64,000 nucleotides of DNA from Colwellia sp. RSH04 (GTDB lineage Bacteria > Pseudomonadota > Gammaproteobacteria > Enterobacterales > Alteromonadaceae). Below, piece after piece: positions 20,343 through 30,815 of the stretch (positions are counted from its first letter, which is position 1; each line of letters begins with the position of its first letter). The notes beneath the pieces were generated by a model, which saw only the letters and a program-made list of their open reading frames with translations, was not told the DNA's origin and made no database searches. A program made the position numbers and the translations under genes. Location: positions 124,001 through 188,000 of the forward strand of contig NZ_QXIO01000007.1 in NCBI RefSeq assembly GCF_003545765.1, read 5' to 3'.

Positions 20343-20448
20343 TGCTTAGTTGTATTCATAAAAAGTTACATTTTAAAAACGACAGACTTTTATATTTGCG
20401 GTAACAATATATTTGTTATCAAAATTAAATAGCAATTGGTTGGGAACT

Positions 20449-21228
20449 ATGTCCAAAGTAAGTAAGAAAAGCCTTATCGCAAGCGCGATGGTAGGTGCAT
20501 TAGCATTAACTGCTAGCAATTTTGCTGCAGCAGATGCGCTAACAAACCTTCAAAAAGAAGAAGCTAAAATTTTTAAAGCTTCTGCTAAATCACAAAACAA
20601 AATCAATAACATTTACGAACAGTCGCAAGAACTTATTGCTGAGTATCGTAATACTATTGATGAAGCAGACGTATTACGTGGTTATAACGACCATGTTCAA
20701 CGTATGGTTGATGATCAAAAAGCAAATATCGTATCTCTTCAAAAACAAATTGATGGTATCGATAAAGTTAAGCAAGGTGTTGTACCGTTAATGTACAAGA
20801 TGATCGACTCTTTAGAGAAGTTCATTGAGCTTGATGTTCCAATGAATATTGAACGTCGTAAAGAACGTGTAGCGAATCTTCGTACTGTAATGGATGATTC
20901 AAACGTTACTGTTTCTGAGCAATTTCGTTTAGTACTTGAAGCGTATGAAATTGAAGCGGGTTACGGCACAATTTTTGATGCTTACCAAAGTGAGATTGAC
21001 TTAGGTGGTCGTACATTAACTGCTGATTTCGTTCACATGGGGCGTATTGCCTTAGTTGCACAATCACTAGATGCGAAACATTCTTGGTTATGGAACAACG
21101 AAACACGTTCTTGGGATGAATTAGGTGATGAGTTCTTAAAACCTGTTACAGACGCCATCCGTATGGCGCGTAAACAACTTCCAATGGACTTAACTAAATT
21201 GCCAGTATTTGCAGCAGGAGCAAAATAA
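20449..21228 (+). CDS. DUF3450 periplasmic protein of the TonB2/TtpC system
   Basis: First gene of a six-gene energy operon. The 259-residue protein has a signal peptide (MSKVSKKSLIASAMVGALAL, cleavage after about residue 29), then a coiled coil to about residue 105 and a helical domain with LDVPMNIERRKERVANLR and FVHMGRIALVAQSLD, the DUF3450 signature. In Vibrio cholerae the corresponding gene (VC1548 as I recall) precedes ttpC. The ATG at 20449 is preferred over an upstream in-frame start because it opens the signal peptide. Its stop overlaps the ttpC ATG by one base. Confidence 0.88.
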   Translation: MSKVSKKSLIASAMVGALALTASNFAAADALTNLQKEEAKIFKASAKSQNKINNIYEQSQELIAEYRNTIDEADVLRGYNDHVQRMVDDQKANIVSLQKQIDGIDKVKQGVVPLMYKMIDSLEKFIELDVPMNIERRKERVANLRTVMDDSNVTVSEQFRLVLEAYEIEAGYGTIFDAYQSEIDLGGRTLTADFVHMGRIALVAQSLDAKHSWLWNNETRSWDELGDEFLKPVTDAIRMARKQLPMDLTKLPVFAAGAK

Positions 21229-22577
21229 TGAAAAAAGTTATTAATTTTGTGATGCTAGCTGCATCAATGACTGCAGGTTTTGCTGCTACAACTCAAGCAA
21301 ACACGCTTGATGACTTATTAAAGCAAGTAAAGGCTGATCGTGTTTCTGAAGCTAAGCTTGATAAAAAACGTGAAGCAGAGTTTTTATCTGCACGTGCTGA
21401 CAAGCAAGCGTTGTTAAATAAAGCAAAGCAAGAATTAGCTAATCAGCAGGCGCGTAATAAACGTTTAACTAAAGAATATGCGGCTAATGAAATTACTTTA
21501 GCGCAAAAAGAAGTAGAGTTAGATAACGCTACCGGTACTTTAGGTGAAATGTTTGGTGTTTCTCGTGCAGCAGCAGCAAGTGCGTATGGTCAAATTACAA
21601 CGTCAATTGTAAGTGCTGAATTTGCTAATCGCGGTGAAGCATTAAATCGCATTGCTAACGCTAAAGAAATTCCAGCTTTAGAAGATTTAGAAGAATTATG
21701 GTTTGCTTTGCAAACTGAAATGACTGAATCAGGTAAAGTATCTAAGTTTAGTGTTGATGTAACTAACTTAGATGGTACTAAGTCAACTGAAACCGTTACT
21801 CGTATTGGTACCTTTAACTTAGTATCAGCTCAAGGTTACTTAACGTACAACGATGAAGTTGGCCAAGTTCAACCATTACCTAAGCAACCTGCAGGCTATA
21901 TTTCTGATACAGCTAAAAGTTTCTTTAACACAGGCTCTGGTTTTGGCGCTGTATATGTGGATCCATCTCGTGGCGGTATCCTTTCTTTAGAAACGCGTAA
22001 GAAAACCCTTGAAGAATTCTTCCATGAAGGTAAACAAGTAGGTTATGCAATTACGGTACTACTAATTTTAGGTTGTTTAATTGCACTAGAGCGTTTAATT
22101 GTTCTAGGTGGCATGAGCTCAAAAATTAAAGCTCAAGAGAAAAATCTTGATAAGCCAAATGAAAACAACCCACTAGGTCGTTTATTAAAAGTTTTCTACG
22201 ATAACCAATCTGCTGATGCTGAAACGTTAGAATTGAAACTTGATGAAGCTATTTTACGTGAAACGCCACAGGTAGACCGTGGTATTAACTTAATCAAAAT
22301 GTTTGCTGCTATTGCCCCGTTAATGGGTCTATTAGGTACGGTAATCGGTATGATTATGACTTTCCAAACAATTACTTTGTTTGGTACAGGTGACCCGAAA
22401 ATTATGGCGGGTAATATCTCACTTGCGTTAGTTACAACTGCCTTAGGTTTAATCTGTGCATTGCCACTTATTTTAATCCACTCTGTTGTAGCAGGTAAGA
22501 GTAAGTCTGTTTTACAAAAACTAGACGAGCAAAGCGCCGGTTTAATCGCTGCAATTGCTGAGAAGGGGTCTAAATAA
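21228..22577 (+). CDS. ttpC: TtpC-type MotA/TolQ/ExbB proton channel protein
   Basis: Component of TonB2 systems, needed in Vibrio for TonB2-dependent uptake. The 449-residue protein is much longer than ExbB: signal peptide (1-24, ending TTQA), a periplasmic coiled coil to about residue 95, a globular periplasmic part, then a membrane helix (about 268-288) and the MotA_TolQ_ExbB domain (about 330-445) with IAPLMGLLGTVIGMIMTFQ and ALVTTALGLICALPLIL. The start overlaps the preceding stop and its own stop overlaps exbB (TAATG), so translation is coupled. Confidence 0.92.
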   Translation: MKKVINFVMLAASMTAGFAATTQANTLDDLLKQVKADRVSEAKLDKKREAEFLSARADKQALLNKAKQELANQQARNKRLTKEYAANEITLAQKEVELDNATGTLGEMFGVSRAAAASAYGQITTSIVSAEFANRGEALNRIANAKEIPALEDLEELWFALQTEMTESGKVSKFSVDVTNLDGTKSTETVTRIGTFNLVSAQGYLTYNDEVGQVQPLPKQPAGYISDTAKSFFNTGSGFGAVYVDPSRGGILSLETRKKTLEEFFHEGKQVGYAITVLLILGCLIALERLIVLGGMSSKIKAQEKNLDKPNENNPLGRLLKVFYDNQSADAETLELKLDEAILRETPQVDRGINLIKMFAAIAPLMGLLGTVIGMIMTFQTITLFGTGDPKIMAGNISLALVTTALGLICALPLILIHSVVAGKSKSVLQKLDEQSAGLIAAIAEKGSK

Positions 22578-23101
22578 TGTTATTCCTGATAGAGCTTTGG
22601 GAATCTGTCAGGGGTTTTATTGCGACTGGCGGTAACGTACTTTATGTTGTTGCCTTCGCTCTCTTCTTGATGTGGATATTGATGATAGAACGTTATTGGT
22701 TCTTAGGATCAGTTTATCCAAAAATGAGAGATGATATCATCGCTCGTTGGGATGCAAGACAAGATACTACATCTTGGTATGCACATCGTATTAGAGATAC
22801 TTGGATCTCCGAAGCAGACGAGTTACTTGAAAAGAACATGATAACCATTAAAACATTAGTGGCAATGTGTCCTCTTATCGGCTTACTGGGAACAGTAACG
22901 GGTATGATTGGCGTATTTGAAGTCATGGCTCAACAAGGCACAGGTAATCCGCGTTTAATGGCCGCAGGTATTTCGCAAGCAACTATTCCGACAATGGCGG
23001 GTATGGTAGCAGCGTTATCAGGCGTGTTCTTTAGTTCAAGATTAGACGCTAAAGTTAAACTAGCAAAGGCTAAACTGGTTGACAGTTTACCTCACCACTA
23101 G
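22577..23101 (+). CDS. exbB: ExbB-type proton channel subunit (ExbB2)
   Basis: Inner-membrane subunit that with ExbD converts proton flow into TonB movement. The 174 residues have three membrane helices (about 17-38, 90-115 and 133-155), with the family segment MCPLIGLLGTVTGMIGVFEVM and ATIPTMAGMVAALSGVFF. The short length is typical of ExbB2 in TtpC operons. Starts on the last base of the ttpC stop codon and is followed 12 bases later by exbD. Confidence 0.94.
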   Translation: MLFLIELWESVRGFIATGGNVLYVVAFALFLMWILMIERYWFLGSVYPKMRDDIIARWDARQDTTSWYAHRIRDTWISEADELLEKNMITIKTLVAMCPLIGLLGTVTGMIGVFEVMAQQGTGNPRLMAAGISQATIPTMAGMVAALSGVFFSSRLDAKVKLAKAKLVDSLPHH

Positions 23102-23113
23102 AGAGATATTTTC

Positions 23114-23515
23114 ATGGCACGTAAAAAAATCCGTGAGGAAGAAGAAGCAGCAATTGATATGACTCCAATGCTGGATATCGTATTTATCATGCTTATCTTC
23201 TTCATCGTTACCACTTCTTTCGTTAAAGAAGCAGGTATTGAAGTAAATAAACCAAAAGCGGCAAATCAAACTAAACAGAAAAATGCCAACATCTTTGTTG
23301 CAATTAAAGATAACGGTGAAATCTGGTTAGATAAAGGTCGTGTAGACATTGAACGTGTTGGTGCGAGGATTGAAAAATTACTTGCTGAACAACCGACTGA
23401 TGTTGTTATCATTCAAGCTGACAAAGATGCTAAACACGGTATTGTTGTTAAAGTAATGGATGCAATTAAAGAGGCTGGCATAGATAGAATTTCTATCGCG
23501 GCTGCGAAGGGGTAA
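23114..23515 (+). CDS. exbD: ExbD-type energy transducer subunit (ExbD2)
   Basis: Single-pass inner-membrane protein with a periplasmic domain. It has 133 residues; the membrane helix (about 20-40) contains the protonatable aspartate, Asp21 in MTPMLDIVFIMLIFFIV, the key residue of ExbD/TolR proteins. The periplasmic part ends with VVIIQADKDAKHGIVVKVMDAIKEAG, here given as the motif VVIIQADKDAKHG, conserved in the family. AGAGATATTTTC precedes the start. Three bases separate it from tonB. Confidence 0.95.
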   Translation: MARKKIREEEEAAIDMTPMLDIVFIMLIFFIVTTSFVKEAGIEVNKPKAANQTKQKNANIFVAIKDNGEIWLDKGRVDIERVGARIEKLLAEQPTDVVIIQADKDAKHGIVVKVMDAIKEAGIDRISIAAAKG

Positions 23516-23518
23516 ATT

Positions 23519-24133
23519 ATGGTTCGCTTTTTAGTATCAATACTACTAGGCGCTGGCGTTACCTTTGGCTTATTTGCTTTTATGGCTTTCCTTGTTTCAT
23601 CTGGTGATCGAAATAAAGAAGAGCAACAAGAGAACATTATTGTCGAAGTAAATACTACTCCGCCAGAGTCAGCTGCAGAACAGCGTCGTCGTGTACCGCC
23701 GCCGCCTCCGCCGCCGCCAAAAGCGCCACCTAAGCAACAGACTCCTGAGCCTGAAGCTAGTAACGACACTGGTGGGTTGAAATTCAACATGCCAGGTGTT
23801 CAAATGGCAGGTGCGTCAACGGGCTTATCAGCTCCTGGTGCAGGTATTGGACGTGATGGTGATGCAACACCAATAGTGCGTATTGAACCAAAATATCCAA
23901 TACAAGCTGCTCGTGATGGTAAAGAAGGTTACGTAATTCTTTCTTTTACTATCAACGAAGTTGGTGGTGTTGAAGATGTTAAAGTTATAGAGGCTAAACC
24001 TAAGCGTATTTTCGATAAAGAAGCGAAACGAGCACTTAGAAAGTGGAAGTACAAGCCAAAAGTTGTTGATGGCAAAGCTCAAAGACGACCTGGTTTAACT
24101 GTACAACTAGACTTTAAAATGGGAGGTGAATAA
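23519..24133 (+). CDS. tonB: TonB-type energy transducer (TonB2)
   Basis: Spans the periplasm and pulls the plug of outer-membrane receptors. The 204 residues comprise an N-terminal membrane anchor (about 3-26), a short proline-rich segment with eight consecutive Pro (about 61-68), and a C-terminal TonB domain (about 112-200) with RIEPKYPIQAARDGKEGYV and the final ALRKWKYKPKVVDG. The short spacer is typical of TonB2. The stop overlaps the TPR gene by one base (TAATG). It presumably serves the receptor at 15761 and others elsewhere. Confidence 0.95.
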   Translation: MVRFLVSILLGAGVTFGLFAFMAFLVSSGDRNKEEQQENIIVEVNTTPPESAAEQRRRVPPPPPPPPKAPPKQQTPEPEASNDTGGLKFNMPGVQMAGASTGLSAPGAGIGRDGDATPIVRIEPKYPIQAARDGKEGYVILSFTINEVGGVEDVKVIEAKPKRIFDKEAKRALRKWKYKPKVVDGKAQRRPGLTVQLDFKMGGE

Positions 24134-25395
24134 TGCTTAAAAAGTTATCAACTTCTTTAGTGATAGCGGCGAGTCTTCTTATTGCTCAAGCACCTTTTGC
24201 TGATGTAGTTAATGCTGCAGAAGCGAAAGCGGAGAAAAAGAAGAAACGTCCAACACAATTAGTCGGTCCACGTGTCGGCAAAAAAGTACAAAAAGCTTTT
24301 GAAGCGTACAGTGCTGACGACATACCTGGTGCATTAGCAATATTATTGGAAATTGAACCGTCTAAGGCCTATGACAAAGCGTATGTAGCACGATTTATTG
24401 GTGTTATGTATGCCACCTTAGGTGATAACGATGCAAAAACAATAGAGTGGTTAACAAAAGCGGTTGAACCTGATTTACTTAATGAAGTAGATCATGGTGA
24501 GTCGTTGAAGTTACTTGCTGATATTCAAATGCAATCTAAAGACTATAAGTCTGCGCTTAAAAACTACTATGCTTGGATGGAGTTTACTGGCAAAGAAGAT
24601 GGCCCAACTTATGTGAAGGTTGCAAATGCATACTATTCACTTAAGCAGTTAGATAAAGTGATTGTACCAGCTGATAAAGCCATTGCAGCCTTTGGTGATA
24701 AGCCAAATCAAAACCCGTATGTTTTAAAAGTAACATCTTACTATGAACGTAAGAAGTACAAAGAAGCTATCGAGGTTTTAGAAACGGTCATTCAATTGTT
24801 CCCTGAGAATAAACAGTGGTGGACACAGCTACCAATGTTCTACTTGTTAGTAGAGAACTATGATAAGGCTACTCAAACACTAGACATGGCGTATAAACTT
24901 GGACATCTAGATAAAGAAGGCCAAATTAAAACGCTTGCGAGTTTATATTCGCAGTCAGGTGTGCCGTATAAATCTGCTCGATTACTAGAAAAGCATATTG
25001 CTTCTGGTTTAGTTAAACGTGATGACAAAAACATTGCGACATTAGCTAATGCTTGGCACTCTGCTCAACATGTAAGTAAAGCAGCTAATTATTATGGTGA
25101 ACTGGCTAAAATGACAAACAGTGCTAAGCATTATCGTAAGCAAGGCATGTTATTGAAGCAAGATGAGCAGTTTGCAAAGGCTATTCCTGCATTGAACAAA
25201 GCAATTGAGTTAGGCATTAAAAATCAAGGTCGAATTCAAATGAGTATTGCTGAATCTTACTTTTATTTAGAAAAGTATAAAGAAGCTTATGCTGCTATTC
25301 AAAAAGCGATGAAAGAGCCTGGTACACGTAAATCAGCTAAAAGTTGGAAAAGCTTTATTGTTGATACTGCGAAACGTAAAAACGTCAATATTTAG
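24133..25395 (+). CDS. TPR-repeat periplasmic protein of the TonB2 operon
   Basis: Last gene of the operon. The 420-residue protein starts with a signal peptide (MLKKLSTSLVIAASLLIAQA, cleavage around residue 28) followed by a Lys-rich stretch (KAEKKKKRPTQ) and then several tetratricopeptide helices: AFEAYSADDIPGALAIL, YKSALKNYYAWME, YKEAIEVLETVIQLFPENKQWW, YDKATQTLDMAYKLG, FAKAIPALNKAIELGIKNQG. In Vibrio the matching gene (VC1543 as I recall) is conserved in the operon; the role is likely as a periplasmic scaffold. A strong terminator follows. Confidence 0.88.
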   Translation: MLKKLSTSLVIAASLLIAQAPFADVVNAAEAKAEKKKKRPTQLVGPRVGKKVQKAFEAYSADDIPGALAILLEIEPSKAYDKAYVARFIGVMYATLGDNDAKTIEWLTKAVEPDLLNEVDHGESLKLLADIQMQSKDYKSALKNYYAWMEFTGKEDGPTYVKVANAYYSLKQLDKVIVPADKAIAAFGDKPNQNPYVLKVTSYYERKKYKEAIEVLETVIQLFPENKQWWTQLPMFYLLVENYDKATQTLDMAYKLGHLDKEGQIKTLASLYSQSGVPYKSARLLEKHIASGLVKRDDKNIATLANAWHSAQHVSKAANYYGELAKMTNSAKHYRKQGMLLKQDEQFAKAIPALNKAIELGIKNQGRIQMSIAESYFYLEKYKEAYAAIQKAMKEPGTRKSAKSWKSFIVDTAKRKNVNI

Positions 25396-25443: not shown

Positions 25444-25583
25444 GACTAAAATTTACTTAACGATAAAATAACCAGTAATTAAATTAAAATATGAAATTTT
25501 TATATTTAGTTGCTGGTCTACATTAGCAGATACCAAAAATTCAGCTTATTATAAGTTGTACTATATTAAAAAAGGGAAACATT

Positions 25584-26192
25584 ATGAGTTTATTGAATAA
25601 GTCTTTTATATTGGCAATGTCGGGCGTACTGGCGTTAAGTGTATTCACGAGCAAGGTTGCACAAGCTGAAGTAAATCCATTTACTGCTCAAGACACCGTA
25701 AGTTATGCAGAAAAGAAAGATGCAAACAAATGCGGTGAAGGCAAGTGCGGCGAAGGTAAAATGAAAGCCAAAGGCAAATGCGGTGAAGGTAAGTGTGGCG
25801 AAGGTAAAAAGAAAGCCAAAGGTAAATGCGGTGAAGGCAAGTGTGGCGAAGGTAAAATGAAAGCCAAAGGCAAATGCGGTGAAGGTAAGTGTGGCGAAGG
25901 TAAAATGAAAGCCAAAGGCAAATGCGGTGAAGGTAAGTGTGGCGAAGGTAAAAAGAAAGCCAAAGGTAAATGCGGTGAAGGCAAGTGTGGCGAAGGTAAA
26001 ATGAAAGCCAAAGGCAAATGCGGTGAAGGTAAGTGTGGCGAAGGTAAAATGAAAGCCAAAGGCAAATGCGGTGAAGGTAAGTGTGGCGAAGGTAAAAAGA
26101 AAGCCAAAGGTAAATGCGGCGAAGGCAAGTGTGGCGAAGGTAAAAAGAAAGCCAAAGGCAAATGCGGTGAAGGTAAAAATAAAGCCAAATAA
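25584..26192 (+). CDS. HvfA-like secreted Cys-rich repeat protein, probable modified metallophore precursor
   Basis: The 202-residue protein has a Sec signal peptide (about 1-28, ending KVAQA), a short NPF-containing leader and nine perfect-length 16-residue repeats KCGEGKCGEGK(M/K)KAKG plus a partial tenth, with 19 Cys in all. Nine Cys lie in the EGKCG motif; nine lie in KGKCG and the first in NKCG. From known biology, HvfA-type peptides with EGKCG repeats are modified by an MNIO (DUF692) enzyme HvfB with HvfC, converting Cys to oxazolone/thioamide groups that bind copper. Neither HvfB nor HvfC is in this window, so this copy is an orphan or is modified in trans. RBS AAAGGGAAAC; own terminator. 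Family call fair; modification inferred. Confidence 0.72.
   Translation: MSLLNKSFILAMSGVLALSVFTSKVAQAEVNPFTAQDTVSYAEKKDANKCGEGKCGEGKMKAKGKCGEGKCGEGKKKAKGKCGEGKCGEGKMKAKGKCGEGKCGEGKMKAKGKCGEGKCGEGKKKAKGKCGEGKCGEGKMKAKGKCGEGKCGEGKMKAKGKCGEGKCGEGKKKAKGKCGEGKCGEGKKKAKGKCGEGKNKAK
25728..26189 (+). repeat. Nine 48-bp tandem coding repeats plus a 30-bp remnant
   Basis: Units of 48 bp run from 25728 to 26159 and a partial unit ends at 26189. By base-level comparison units 2, 5 and 8 are identical, units 3 and 6 are identical, and units 4 and 7 are identical, so 25776-25919 and 25920-26063 are exact 144-bp copies. The position-12 residue follows Met-Lys-Met, Met-Lys-Met, Met-Lys-Lys. This indicates recent expansion by blocks of three units through unequal exchange or replication slippage. 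Confidence 0.95.
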
Positions 26193-26210
26193 AGACTTAT
26201 ATTTGAATAG

Positions 26211-26236
26211 AAAAAACGGGCATTTGCCCGTTTTTT
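26211..26236. terminator. Rho-independent terminator, likely bidirectional
   Basis: AAAAAACGGGC / GCCCGTTTTTT stem with loop ATTT. It lies between the HvfA-like gene and the convergent lipoprotein gene and has A- and T-tracts on the two sides. Confidence 0.95.
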
Positions 26237-26257
26237 AGTTTTTACGCAAAAAGTGAA

Positions 26258-26779
26258 TTATTGATTTTTACCAACATAATAATAAACCGACCAAGTATTA
26301 CTATAAACGCTACTTGATGGTACTAAATGTGTTGACACAGTTACCTCACTTTTGTCAGTAGAAAATAGCGTTTTCGAGCCGTCATCATGGCGTCTTTTAC
26401 TGCTATTAGCTTGCCACTCACTACCTAAGCATTGTTTAACGGTACTTACTGCTTTGTTGTAATAATCCTTAGCAACTTGTTCGTCGACTTGAACGGTATT
26501 ACATGAGTATGTTGTTTTATCGCCACCCAAAGTCCAAATAGTACAATTCTCACCAATCAGGTGATATTTAGCTTGCCAAATTTTACTCGCTCTTGCTTTA
26601 ACTTCTCCAGCTTTTAACTGCTCAAAACCTTCGTTATAGGCCTTAATTAAATAATCTAGCTTTTGACAAGGGTTAGATACTGGTGCTAAGTTTTGTTGTG
26701 CAATGTGATTTTGATTAGCGCAACTGGTAACTAAGAGAGTCGTAAATACAGGTAATATAATTTTGGTTGAATTTATCAT
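26258..26779 (-). CDS. Putative lipoprotein of unknown function
   Basis: Not recognised beyond its localisation. The 173-residue protein has a lipoprotein signal with lipobox LVTSC (Cys about residue 20) and no Asp at the next position (Ala-Asn follow), so outer-membrane sorting is likely. The mature part has four more Cys (PCQKLDY, ENCTIW, YSCNTV, KQCLGSEW), which may form two disulfides, and ends in beta strands VSTHLVPSS and SVYYYVGK. The ATG at 26779 is preferred over a TTG two codons earlier. It converges on the HvfA-like gene but no functional link is evident. Confidence 0.7.
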   Translation of the reverse strand: MINSTKIILPVFTTLLVTSCANQNHIAQQNLAPVSNPCQKLDYLIKAYNEGFEQLKAGEVKARASKIWQAKYHLIGENCTIWTLGGDKTTYSCNTVQVDEQVAKDYYNKAVSTVKQCLGSEWQANSSKRRHDDGSKTLFSTDKSEVTVSTHLVPSSSVYSNTWSVYYYVGKNQ

Positions 26780-27031
26780 AGTCAATCTGAATGGCTTCCA
26801 TATCCATGGAGGTAATTAAAGTATTCTATAGTACAAAATATCATAAGTCTTTCATAGTAGACTGAACTTGTTTGTTATCATGGAATAAGCTTCGCTACAT
26901 GAATTAGTTGTATATGAAGGAATAAACAGTTCTTAAACTATAAAAAACACATCACCATTTCTTTATAGCGTTTTGCAGCATCTTACTGATGGGTTATAAT
27001 ATAGCTCTTTTAAGCCCATCAGGAATTCAAT

Positions 27032-27685
27032 TTGACTAACAATGATATATTACGCCGTTTACGTTATACCTTTAACTGGAATGATAACGAGATGGCTTCT
27101 ATGCTCTCTTTAATGGGAGTTAAGGTTACCAGCGGACAAGTTAATCATTGGTTGAAAAAAGATAACGATGAAAATTACGAAGAATGTACAGATTATAATT
27201 TTGCAGCATTGTTAAATGGCTTTATTGAAAAGAAACGTGGTAAAAAAGAGGGGCCTAGAGCCGAAATAGAAGCTAGGCTCAACAATAATATAATTCTTAC
27301 AAAAATAAAAATTGCATTAGGTTTAAAAGCAGATGACATAATAAGTATGTTAGCAAGTGTCGATTTTACATTGAGTAAACCTGAATTAAGTGCTTTTACC
27401 AGGAAAGTTGATCATAAGCATTACCGTGAATGTAAAGATCAAGTACTTAGAAACTTTCTTAAAGCAATAGAGAAGCGCTTCTTTGTCGCGAGAAAAGAAA
27501 AAGCCAAAGTACCTAATAAAGTATCAAATAAGAGTAAGCCTAGCTATAAAAAAGAAAAAGGTGATTCAGTAGAGGGTGCTCGACCTAATGCCAGTAATAT
27601 ATATCACAACCCATATGCAAACTCACCAAGCTCTGAATCTTCCCAAAAAAATAGTCGTAGTAAATTAACATTAAAAAAGCCTTAG
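27032..27685 (+). CDS. yehS: YehS-like DUF1456 protein
   Basis: Cytoplasmic protein of unknown function with two DUF1456 repeats, at about residues 3-68 (NNDILRRLRYTFNWNDNEM, VNHWLKKD) and 92-155 (NNIILTKIKIALGLKADDI, FTRKVDHKHYRECKDQVLRN given here as two motifs). E. coli YehS has the same two repeats. A basic, low-complexity tail of about 60 residues follows, which E. coli YehS lacks. The start is TTG at 27032, supported by AGGA eight bases upstream and by the family N-terminus (NDILR at residues 4-8). Confidence 0.88.
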   Translation: MTNNDILRRLRYTFNWNDNEMASMLSLMGVKVTSGQVNHWLKKDNDENYEECTDYNFAALLNGFIEKKRGKKEGPRAEIEARLNNNIILTKIKIALGLKADDIISMLASVDFTLSKPELSAFTRKVDHKHYRECKDQVLRNFLKAIEKRFFVARKEKAKVPNKVSNKSKPSYKKEKGDSVEGARPNASNIYHNPYANSPSSESSQKNSRSKLTLKKP

Positions 27686-28631: not shown

Positions 28632-30815
28632 ATGAGTTATCAAGTTTTAGCAAGAAAGTGGCGCCCTAAAAACTTTCAACAGCTTATGGGACAAGAGCAT
28701 GTTGTCAGTGTGTTAACTAATGCACTATCTCAACAGCGTATTCATCATGCTTATTTGTTTACCGGCACTCGAGGTGTAGGTAAAACGACCATAGCAAGGA
28801 TCTTTGCAAAAAGCTTAAATTGCGAGCAAGGCATCACAGAGTCACCATGTGGTCAGTGCCAAACTTGTTTAGATATCGATAGCGGGCACTTTATTGATTT
28901 ACTTGAAGTCGATGCGGCATCAAAAACCAAAGTGGATGACACGCGAGAGATACTTGATAATGTACAATATGCACCAACACGTGGGCGCTATAAAGTATAC
29001 CTAATAGATGAAGTACATATGCTTTCAAGGCATAGTTTTAATGCTTTATTGAAAACGCTAGAAGAGCCGCCAGCCCATGTGAAATTTATTTTAGCGACAA
29101 CAGATCCGCAAAAACTTCCAGTTACCGTGTTATCACGCTGTTTACAGTTTCATTTAAAAGCATTAACCGTAAAACAAATAGAAGCTAAACTTGATGATAT
29201 TTTGAAAAGTGAATCAGTATCTCATCAACCAGGCTGCCTTACATTAATCGCAAAAGCTGCTCGTGGTAGTATGCGAGATTCACTCAGCTTAACTGACCAG
29301 GCTATAGCGCAAGGTCAGGGGCATATTTCGCTAGAAAATATTCAGCAAATGCTTGGCGGAATCGATCATAACTGGGTATATAAAATACTCATTACTTTAC
29401 TTAAACAAGATGGTAAAGGTTTGATGACTTTGTCTCAAGAAATTGCCTCTTATGCACCTAGTTATAACCGTTTATTTGCAGAGTTAATCCAACTATTTCA
29501 TCAAATTGCATTGATGCAAATTGTAGAACAACATTTCGATTTACCAGCAGAGCAAGTTACTTTACTGAAAAAGTTTGCTGAATCAATGTCTGCTGAAGAT
29601 ATTCAACTTTATTATCAAATAGCATTAAATGGACGTAAAGATTTACCTTATGCTATTGATGAGCAAGCAGCGTTTGATATGACGTTATTACGTTTACATG
29701 CTTTCAAACCAATGCAAACTGGTGTAACTCAGCAGGTAATAGATAATACGAATCCTCAAGTTACACCTGTCGATTTTACTAGTGACTCTTTGCCTGATAC
29801 CAACATGGCAAAGCCCATACTTTATGCAAGTGACAATGATAGTGAAACAGTAAGCTTAGGCAACTCTGAACAGATCAGCAGCGAATTGCCAATAACTTCA
29901 ATAAATGAAGTCCCTACAGAAGATCAGCAGCTATCACAAGAAAACTCGTTAGCAGAAGAAAACACTGAAGAAATTAATAATAACGAACTAATTGACCAAG
30001 CACCCGTCTCATTAGATGAACAAATGGTTGCAATTGAGCAAGAGGCTCAAGCGCTGTCATCTATGCCAACTGATGTTCAGCATGAACAAAGTAGCGCCAT
30101 GGAAGCTCCTTTAATTGTAAGTAAGCAGACTATTATTGATGCTAACAGGAACACTGAACAAATAGCTGAGCCAACAGCGCCAGTTATTGAAAGCCCTGTA
30201 AGTGCCGTTCTAGCAACCAGAAATATGCTTCGTAGTCGAAAAAAGCAACTGGAGCAGCAAACAAAAAAGTCTGATGGCGCTAATCAGCGTCATAATAAAA
30301 GTTCAACTGAATTACAGACGCAAGCTACAGAAGAACAGGCAACAAATGAACATGTTGTTAAGCATACACCTCCAGAGCCAACAGTCCCTTTTAGTGAAGA
30401 GCAGATAGATCCTGCTGTTATTAAGAAAGCTAATCAGGTTGATAAATGGGCTCATATGATTGATGCGATGGAGCTTACTGCTAGAATTAGACAATTAGCT
30501 ATTCACGCAACCATTGGCGAAAACTCCACAGACGATCATTTAATTCTACAGTTAGATCAAGCGACAAAGCATTTAAATACCGAAGTAGCCCAACAGCAGT
30601 TACAAGATTATATTTGTCAGTTTTTAGCAAAGCCAATCACAGTAACGGTAGAGTTAGTTGATAAAACCGTTGCAGATCCTTACCAGATACAATCGCAAAT
30701 TAATGATAAACGGTATGATTATGCAAAAGCCTTGCTATTTGAGGATACGACGGTGAAGTCACTACAGCAAATATTTCAAGCTGAGCTGGATGAAGAGACT
30801 ATTCAGGCTCATTAA
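28632..30815 (+). CDS. dnaX: DNA polymerase III tau (and gamma) subunit
   Basis: Clamp-loader ATPase subunit. The 727-residue tau form begins MSYQVLARKWRPKNFQQLMGQ, with Walker A GTRGVGKTT (about 45-53), four zinc-ligand Cys (CEQG, CGQC, C in QTC), the DEVHMLS Walker B and the SRC sensor; domain III ends near residue 360. A long acidic/Gln-rich linker follows and a C-terminal tau-specific domain (about 600-727). A programmed -1 frameshift site lies at 30239-30293 and would produce a gamma form of about 547 residues. ybaB and recR follow, the usual dnaX-ybaB-recR order. Confidence 0.97.
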   Translation: MSYQVLARKWRPKNFQQLMGQEHVVSVLTNALSQQRIHHAYLFTGTRGVGKTTIARIFAKSLNCEQGITESPCGQCQTCLDIDSGHFIDLLEVDAASKTKVDDTREILDNVQYAPTRGRYKVYLIDEVHMLSRHSFNALLKTLEEPPAHVKFILATTDPQKLPVTVLSRCLQFHLKALTVKQIEAKLDDILKSESVSHQPGCLTLIAKAARGSMRDSLSLTDQAIAQGQGHISLENIQQMLGGIDHNWVYKILITLLKQDGKGLMTLSQEIASYAPSYNRLFAELIQLFHQIALMQIVEQHFDLPAEQVTLLKKFAESMSAEDIQLYYQIALNGRKDLPYAIDEQAAFDMTLLRLHAFKPMQTGVTQQVIDNTNPQVTPVDFTSDSLPDTNMAKPILYASDNDSETVSLGNSEQISSELPITSINEVPTEDQQLSQENSLAEENTEEINNNELIDQAPVSLDEQMVAIEQEAQALSSMPTDVQHEQSSAMEAPLIVSKQTIIDANRNTEQIAEPTAPVIESPVSAVLATRNMLRSRKKQLEQQTKKSDGANQRHNKSSTELQTQATEEQATNEHVVKHTPPEPTVPFSEEQIDPAVIKKANQVDKWAHMIDAMELTARIRQLAIHATIGENSTDDHLILQLDQATKHLNTEVAQQQLQDYICQFLAKPITVTVELVDKTVADPYQIQSQINDKRYDYAKALLFEDTTVKSLQQIFQAELDEETIQAH
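30239..30293 (+). promoter_or_regulatory. Programmed -1 ribosomal frameshift cassette in dnaX
   Basis: Two slippery heptamers A-AAA-AAG are in the correct phase, at 30239-30245 and 30263-30269. A -1 slip at either reaches the same TGA at 30272-30274. The second site gives AAAAAAG-TC-TGA, the same geometry as E. coli dnaX. GGAG at 30251-30254, eight bases before it, can act as the internal stimulatory Shine-Dalgarno, and ATGGCGCT / AGCGTCAT (30274-30281 with 30286-30293, one G-U pair) forms the downstream hairpin four bases after the heptamer. Confidence 0.82.

Follow-up and report, generated by a model that had tools for sequence, protein, structure and literature searches.

A gene of the window (the whole 64-kb stretch of Colwellia DNA that was analyzed) appears to be the positional orthologue of hvfA, the precursor gene for a copper-binding RiPP of the oxazolin/captophorin type, and it stands in a genome in which we have found neither of the enzymes that accompany such precursors in sister genera. 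The reading that we favor, on balance, is that an oxazolin precursor has outlived its enzymes and serves today, unmodified, as a probable stress-induced thiol or metal buffer of the envelope. Descent from an hvfA-type precursor is a well-supported part of this reading; that the gene is induced and that its product binds metal are parts that we infer.

The features of the locus are collected in Table 1. The open reading frame begins with an ATG at 25584 and ends with a stop codon at 26190-26192, and its product of 202 residues contains 19 Cys; the N-terminus, judged by eye, is signal-peptide-like, with a putative cleavage site between AQA and EVNPF. At the DNA level the repeats form a tandem unit of 48 nt (9.4 copies, 94% matches, score 809), and at the protein level NF050137 (NCBIfam KCGExKCG_twice) recognizes nine stretches (E 2e-42; 142.5 bits, cut-off 19.5). 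An earlier note on this DNA had described nine Cys-rich units with 19 Cys behind a signal peptide, half of the Cys in a KGKCG context, and had related to HvfA a solitary gene with its own terminator, placed directly after a TonB operon; on each of these points it was borne out, the terminator as a terminator-like hairpin (one found in a scan of the region against 0.9 expected in shuffles; fold of 26196-26245, z = -5.0). When the own genome is searched with the window protein a single locus is found, the second row being the same place in another frame, and an open reading frame on the reverse strand at 25703-26188 was rejected as a gene since it mirrors the repeats. Within the TonB2-type operon the TPR protein alone was scanned; the remaining names (DUF3450, MotA/ExbB-like, ExbB, ExbD, TonB), and that of dnaX, are ones that we take these sequences to merit. 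A small putative lipoprotein, recognized by eye and without a confident Pfam family, is encoded on the minus strand at 26258-26785, and it lies between the orphan and DUF1456 in some relatives also. We speak here of canonical and orphan proteins according to their leaders, as defined below. The HvfA equivalog model NF050188 gives the window protein 71.5 bits, under the cut-off of 95, which is a weak test in that 5/11 canonical proteins also fail it; with 0/11 orphans but just 6/11 canonical proteins over the cut-off, this score was rejected as a separator of the two classes. AlphaFold2, run with 30 sequences, predicted a helix at the N-terminus of the window protein and nothing else with confidence (mean pLDDT 46), and it did not reproduce the beta-helix that the available part of PMC12452194 reports for a canonical protein.

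Table 1. Features at the locus of the window gene (positions are those of the window)
Feature	Position	Strand	Basis or remark
TonB2-type operon (DUF3450, MotA/ExbB-like, ExbB, ExbD, TonB, TPR)	20413..25395	+	Landmark upstream; TPR protein scanned, other names presumed
Promoter-like element TGAAAT-N17-GGTCTA	25492..25520	+	Exact in the window; conserved in the genus upstream alignment
Leader region	25584..25727	+	Signal peptide and NPFTAQDTVSYAEKKDAN; motif of MNIO-adjacent HvfA lacking
Orphan HvfA-type precursor	25584..26192	+	19 Cys in the protein; nine KCGEGKCGEGK units; putative signal peptide; NPF leader that lacks L-x-x-G-Y
Intrinsic terminator-like hairpin, single-gene unit	26211..26236	+	Hairpin scan, fold z
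DUF1456 protein	27032..27685	+	PF07308, 162.4 bits; next same-strand landmark, where sister genera have HvfB-HvfC
dnaX	28632..30815	+	Name presumed; downstream landmark common to orphan and canonical loci

The own genome (4.15 Mb in 71 contigs, 100% complete) has no match to PF05114 (MNIO), still none at E<=10, and none to PF09836 (DUF2063, PME), and both models do pick up their targets in relatives as well as in control genomes. Our genus sample consists of 39 genomes, from records named Colwellia or Litorilituus and including the own genome. The repeat protein is carried by 35 of them, again counting the own genome, a PF05114 match over the cut-off by 20 and a PF09836 match by 21 (in one case a fragment interrupted by two stops); 16 genomes have the repeat protein and an MNIO, 19 the repeat protein alone and four an MNIO alone. 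All 19 genus genomes that lack an MNIO thus carry the repeat protein, 17 of them are at least 90% complete, and one, G109, is a single contig. The intact genus proteins that were read have 8 to 19 Cys. The fragmentary DUF2063 gene (G207:C16:61344-61466), in an MNIO-less genome of Colwellia type, is perhaps what remains of a decayed bufferin cluster. The earlier note had found DUF692 and DUF2063 wanting in the window, as we do, and had left it that the modifying enzyme must act from elsewhere or be absent; it is absence that stands, for the whole genome and for 19/35 genus carriers, and an enzyme acting in trans within the window's own genome was rejected on the strength of the two null searches. 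The expectation that the Cys of this protein are MNIO-modified falls too, within the reach of these searches and of the assembly, a genome without any DUF692 having been named beforehand as the finding that would count against it. The oxazolone/thioamide chemistry on which that expectation drew has meanwhile been corrected in the literature to 5-thiooxazole (PMC13097082 and PMC13419390, in the sections available).

Among the four genus genomes without the repeat protein, G259 and G264 keep the TPR gene and are missing the orphan, and in G253 and G271 the search for the TPR gene gave no orthologue that was intact, so that the place of the gene may be missing from these two assemblies. At the loci of G264 (L237) and G259 (L239) the TonB2 TPR gene is intact and the orphan gene and its promoter element are both gone; the sigma gene discussed below retains its own element in the two genomes. 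In a family sample of 246 genomes, 179 have the repeat protein and 176 an MNIO (142 both, 37 the repeat only, 34 the MNIO only, 33 neither), and the 70 MNIO-less genomes accordingly divide into 37 with the repeat protein and 33 without it. The clean loss in G259 and G264, together with these 33/70 genomes, indicates that the gene is dispensable. Of the 29 MNIO-less genomes with the repeat outside the genus, 28 had a readable leader, orphan-type in every case. A published survey counted a Buf_EGKCG precursor without an MNIO in 67/2583 genomes (Table 3 of PMC12452194, a source available in part), against which the present clade looks unusual in its number of MNIO-less carriers, the samples being different and the counts not directly comparable.

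The place of the window gene corresponds to that of HvfA-MNIO clusters in sister genera. In all 29 genus loci that were read, the homologue of the window gene stands beside the TonB2 TPR gene, with DUF1456 in the nearby flank in 27. For comparison there are 20 canonical pieces from the family with wide flanks, nine of which were picked for a TPR gene already seen. Canonical HvfA-MNIO has dnaX downstream in 17/20 of these pieces and the TonB2 operon upstream in 10/20, that is, in the nine preselected ones and, among the other eleven, in L225 (gap ~2.8 kb); the gene order in those ten is DUF3450-MotA-ExbB-ExbD-TonB-TPR-HvfA-MNIO. Eight pieces have at least 5 kb upstream and no TonB2 operon, and two more are too short to tell. 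In L194 all three proteins score over curated cut-offs, the enzymes those of HvfB and HvfC and the precursor, with 97.8 bits, that of HvfA, and in Ferrimonas sediminicola, by name outside the sampled family, HvfA-MNIO likewise lies upstream of dnaX. Twenty wide orphan pieces from outside the genus have dnaX downstream in 12, upstream in three (genus g8, at ~8 kb) and in neither place in five, and three of the 20 have TonB2 upstream. It is dnaX that is the wider landmark, the full order of TonB2, precursor and dnaX being found in the genus of the window and in roughly half of the pieces with canonical HvfA; with TonB2 upstream and dnaX downstream, the window gene stands where a positional orthologue of hvfA is to be expected. 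In the g8 loci (L205, L213, L216) the orphan, with an orphan-type leader, is ~6 kb downstream of YbaB and 8 kb downstream of dnaX; the L216 genome has MNIOs elsewhere too. The earlier note drew no functional tie to the TonB operon from this position, and nor do we: the HvfA-MNIO clusters of sister genera hold the corresponding place, half of those compared after a TonB2 operon, so standing after this operon can be inherited and is by itself no functional tie. A TonB-specific function read from position alone was rejected, since canonical clusters have that position in common with the orphan.

An MNIO lies near 39/43 loci with a canonical leader and near 0/66 loci with an orphan leader (the DNA searched on either side ranged between ~1.5 and 9 kb). 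The canonical loci without a nearby MNIO are L159, L181, L189 (gene near contig end) and L012, and the genome of L012 has an MNIO on the same contig, ~59 kb away. A dnaX tree was built from 57 stretches of at least 300 aa, 55 once identical ones were removed (37 orphan; 18 canonical, Ferrimonas being one); on this tree there is one change of label, at a split of 100/100, and several of the canonical rows, that of Ferrimonas included, are on long branches. A tree of the ECF sigma factor (31 rows) agrees weakly with the dnaX split (71/83). The canonical form is present in other Gammaproteobacteria too, Ferrimonas and Microbulbifer among them, and the simplest reading is then that the enzyme pair was lost once; the direction of this change rests on parsimony, which is short of proof. 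An orphan-like KCGE protein was also seen in a record titled Planctomycetia MAG (L171); neither an MNIO (16 kb) nor the promoter element accompanies it, and it may stem from a misbinned contig or mark a second origin.

The leader and the surroundings of the Cys residues have changed in the orphans, and the Cys themselves have been kept. For this comparison 137 proteins were read and 109 kept, after removal of identical ones, those containing X and those of <80 aa. The leader classes were set by a regular expression written post hoc, so that the leader statistics describe the classes and are no blind test; the count of nearby MNIOs and the Cys context are checks separate from the class definition. 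Canonical leaders follow the pattern NPF-x4-L-x-S-G-Y (L 88%, S 71%, G 93% and Y 90% of the 42 read), and the commonest letters of the 64 orphan leaders read are NPF-A-x-Q-E-L-V-T-I-V. The pair [GS][YF] is found in 42/43 canonical leaders and in 1/66 orphan leaders, the one being that of the window protein, which has T-V-S-Y where its MNIO-adjacent relatives have L-x-S-G-Y, a motif defined here after the sequences had been seen. Three positions ahead of the Cys (-3), Glu occupies 99% of 414 canonical sites, whereas the 726 orphan sites are divided between Glu (46%) and Lys (43%), and Glu at +2 rises from 69% of canonical to 96% of orphan Cys. Cys stands at the KxG position in 639/639 orphan units and in 385/387 canonical ones, and the repeats of the window gene and of its G109 counterpart (both from MNIO-less genomes) differ by dN 0.032 and dS 0.59 (dN/dS 0.05), against a dN of 0.37 and a dS that is not computable for the leader; repeat arrays homogenize, so that both the dN/dS and the 639/639 overstate independent conservation. 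In the sections of PMC13097082 available, FonBC accepted most substitutions at -3 and individual Ala replacements ahead of the core; among the variants reported at -3, Arg (and Pro) alone blocked it, with Lys unmentioned in that section. With such tolerance, the loss of G-Y or of Glu is no proof that an MNIO could not modify an orphan, and the changes in the leader and at -3 are consistent with relaxed enzyme recognition and do not prove it.

Orphan and canonical genes share a promoter-like element. The strict form TGAAAT-N17-GGTC lies upstream of 52/66 orphan and 21/26 canonical genes (family plus Ferrimonas), and the loose form upstream of 61 and 23, respectively; upstream of canonical genes in other Gammaproteobacteria the element was found in 0/17. 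As controls for the loose form, downstream windows gave 0/65, 0/26 and 0/15, and mononucleotide shuffles 38/6600, 15/2600 and 14/1700. On our reading, TGAAAT-N17-GGTCTA would be an ECF-type -35/-10 promoter. The exact element (last letter A/T) has three matches in the own genome, against two for the reversed control: one at the window gene, one inside an open reading frame that is presumably an acyl-CoA dehydrogenase, and one directly before an ECF sigma gene (NF009170) that is followed by a DUF3379 gene (C71, ~69.8-71.1 kb; L250:1501-2755). Elsewhere, two of the six exact matches in G155 are at these two genes, the sole match in G005 is at HvfA, and the sole match in G109 is at neither gene. 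The sigma gene is present in 30/30 chosen genomes, with DUF3379 beside it in 30/30. Before it, strict TGAAA[TC]-N17-GGTC is found in 12/30 genomes, in nine of them at position -36 relative to the start that was matched (shuffles 1/9000), a loose form in eight more and none in ten; ten canonical genomes gave no strict and three loose matches at this place. Three residues of DUF3379 (H114, C159 and H168) are invariant in 31/31 sequences and follow a stretch read as a membrane helix; we infer that the protein is an anti-sigma factor, and this His/Cys/His set may form a periplasmic metal or redox site. No mention of DUF3379 was found in a literature search that had most subscription papers outside its reach. 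Many Colwellia upstream sequences have TATAAC 17 nt after TTGCAG, a pair that the window does not have, and a general sigma-70 scan of the window gene region found three sites against a shuffle mean of 2.1; a sigma-70 site was considered as a candidate second promoter. In Caulobacter, sigma-F controls two DUF2282-DUF692-DUF2063 operons under chromium and cadmium (PMC3511200, available in part); RpoE2 of H. influenzae was rejected as a precedent, the available part of PMC7907618 containing no mention of DUF692 or copper.

Since 16/35 genus carriers of the repeat protein do have an MNIO, and since FonBC tolerates many changes in its substrate (available part of PMC13097082), it might be supposed that the orphan is still modified in trans by an MNIO encoded elsewhere. 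This supposition fails for the window genome unless its assembly missed such a gene, and 18 other genus carriers are likewise without one; we give it very little credence. In the 16 MNIO-bearing carriers every MNIO match is distant from the gene, on another contig except in G251, where it is >370 kb off. The genus has 33 MNIO matches that exceed the cut-off; one locus in each of 20 genomes was read, and ten of these MNIOs were scanned. A bufferin-like Cys precursor lies just upstream of the MNIO at 18/20 loci (six of 13 Cys, twelve of 4 Cys), and all ten scanned MNIOs score best to BufB, at 302-386 bits (seven over the cut-off of 310, three just under), and at 179-274 bits fall below the HvfB cut-off of 360 (0/10 pass). 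Nor do the orphans of MNIO-bearing and MNIO-less Colwellia differ, with Lys at -3 in 43% of both and 10.7 vs 11.1 Cys (13 and 16 proteins). At two MNIO loci, L109 (G259) and L110 (G264), no Cys-rich precursor was found just upstream of a BufB-type MNIO of 315 bits (cut-off 310).

The uniformity of the new unit, with its +2 Glu, is what the recognition motif of an unrecognized, non-MNIO enzyme acting on Cys in the K-C-G-E-G-K context would look like, but no such enzyme is evident among the conserved neighbors (TonB2 operon, DUF1456, a receiver-domain protein, dnaX), and we think this explanation very unlikely. A similarly slight chance attaches to a decaying relic, that is, to a precursor that has been drifting since the enzymes were lost. 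Gene and element have indeed gone altogether from G259 and G264, 33/70 MNIO-less family genomes lack the repeat protein and the number of Cys varies from 8 to 19, but drift sits poorly with retention in 35/39 genus genomes, including all 19 that are MNIO-less, with Cys in 639/639 units, with a dN/dS of 0.05 over the repeats and with a loose element kept in 61/66. The high Lys content and the repeats without confident predicted structure would suit a structural or electrostatic role, as a Lys-rich and perhaps disulfide-linked envelope protein, in place of metal buffering. We consider such a role unlikely, though it deserves to be kept in mind; descent from a copper-binding peptide and the shared promoter element speak against it, as would the invariant H114/C159/H168 of DUF3379 if, as seems to us plausible, they suit metal or redox sensing.

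The favored reading, that of a precursor that has outlived its enzymes, would run as follows. In the ancestor of the Colwellia-type clade, hvfB (MNIO) and hvfC (PME with an RRE domain) would have been lost upstream of dnaX and the precursor kept; the precursor would then have diverged, with L-x-S-G-Y disappearing and the unit moving from E-G-K-C-G towards K-C-G-E-(G)-K, the Cys being replaced in none of the units found. The product would be exported without modification, as a repeat polypeptide rich in Lys and Cys. Transcription would probably depend on the ECF sigma factor encoded with DUF3379, whose own gene is often behind the same element, and envelope stress, such as copper or oxidants, would most likely release this factor and thereby turn on the orphan, the inducer presumably being metal or redox. 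The exported free thiols would then bind metal or take up oxidation. Put more boldly, a marine clade may have turned a thiooxazole RiPP metallophore into a gene-encoded thiol buffer under a dedicated ECF sigma/DUF3379 switch, the enzymes having been discarded once and the recognition features eroded, a proposal for and against which we find the balance about even.

The closest known systems are oxazolin/HvfA and the other captophorins (fontiphorin, gonophorin), with which the orphan has in common a signal peptide, an NPF leader and repeated KCG units, and the HvfA-HvfB clusters of sister genera, whose genomic place it shares. Captophorins are characterized by 5-thiooxazole on Cys (-4 Da each) and by Cu binding. 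Unlike HvfA, the window protein occurs in a genome where no HvfB or HvfC was found and scores under the NF050188 cut-off, and orphans have a leader without L-x-S-G-Y and about half of their Cys with Lys, not Glu, at -3. Metallothioneins and copper storage proteins offer a working analogy, in that the orphan, like them, would bind metal by way of Cys that carry no modification; in contrast to them the orphan would be exported and has repeats without a predicted fold, and we claim no homology. The bufferins BufA1 and BufA2 (DUF2282, 6/12 Cys) are, like the orphan, exported Cys-rich peptides, and those of Caulobacter are ECF-controlled (PMC3511200, available part), but they belong to another sequence family, and the MNIOs of Colwellia adjoin bufferins and not the window gene. 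Buf_EGKCG precursors without an MNIO resemble the present case in that the precursor is there and the MNIO is not, and for them the authors propose either that they act unmodified or that their function has been lost (available part of PMC12452194). What differs here is that an orthologous family has been kept across a clade (37/179 repeat-bearing family genomes) with leader and unit altered, and the part of PMC12452194 available holds no description that we saw of such a clade-wide MNIO-less orthologous family. Colwellia went unmentioned in five MNIO papers drawn from a literature that included few subscription papers.

The family of the window gene is a known one and its state here a new one; the gene, a positional orthologue of hvfA, is not to be filed as a modified metallophore. 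The corresponding loci with and without enzymes are a natural comparison through which it may be asked whether the thiooxazoles of captophorins are needed or whether Cys repeats suffice, and ECF/DUF3379 is a candidate regulator for that comparison in marine bacteria. If the favored reading is true, the annotation of every KCGE repeat protein as a modified metallophore, in the style of NF050137, would be wrong for this clade, and the clade would provide an example of a RiPP precursor that has outlived its own modification.
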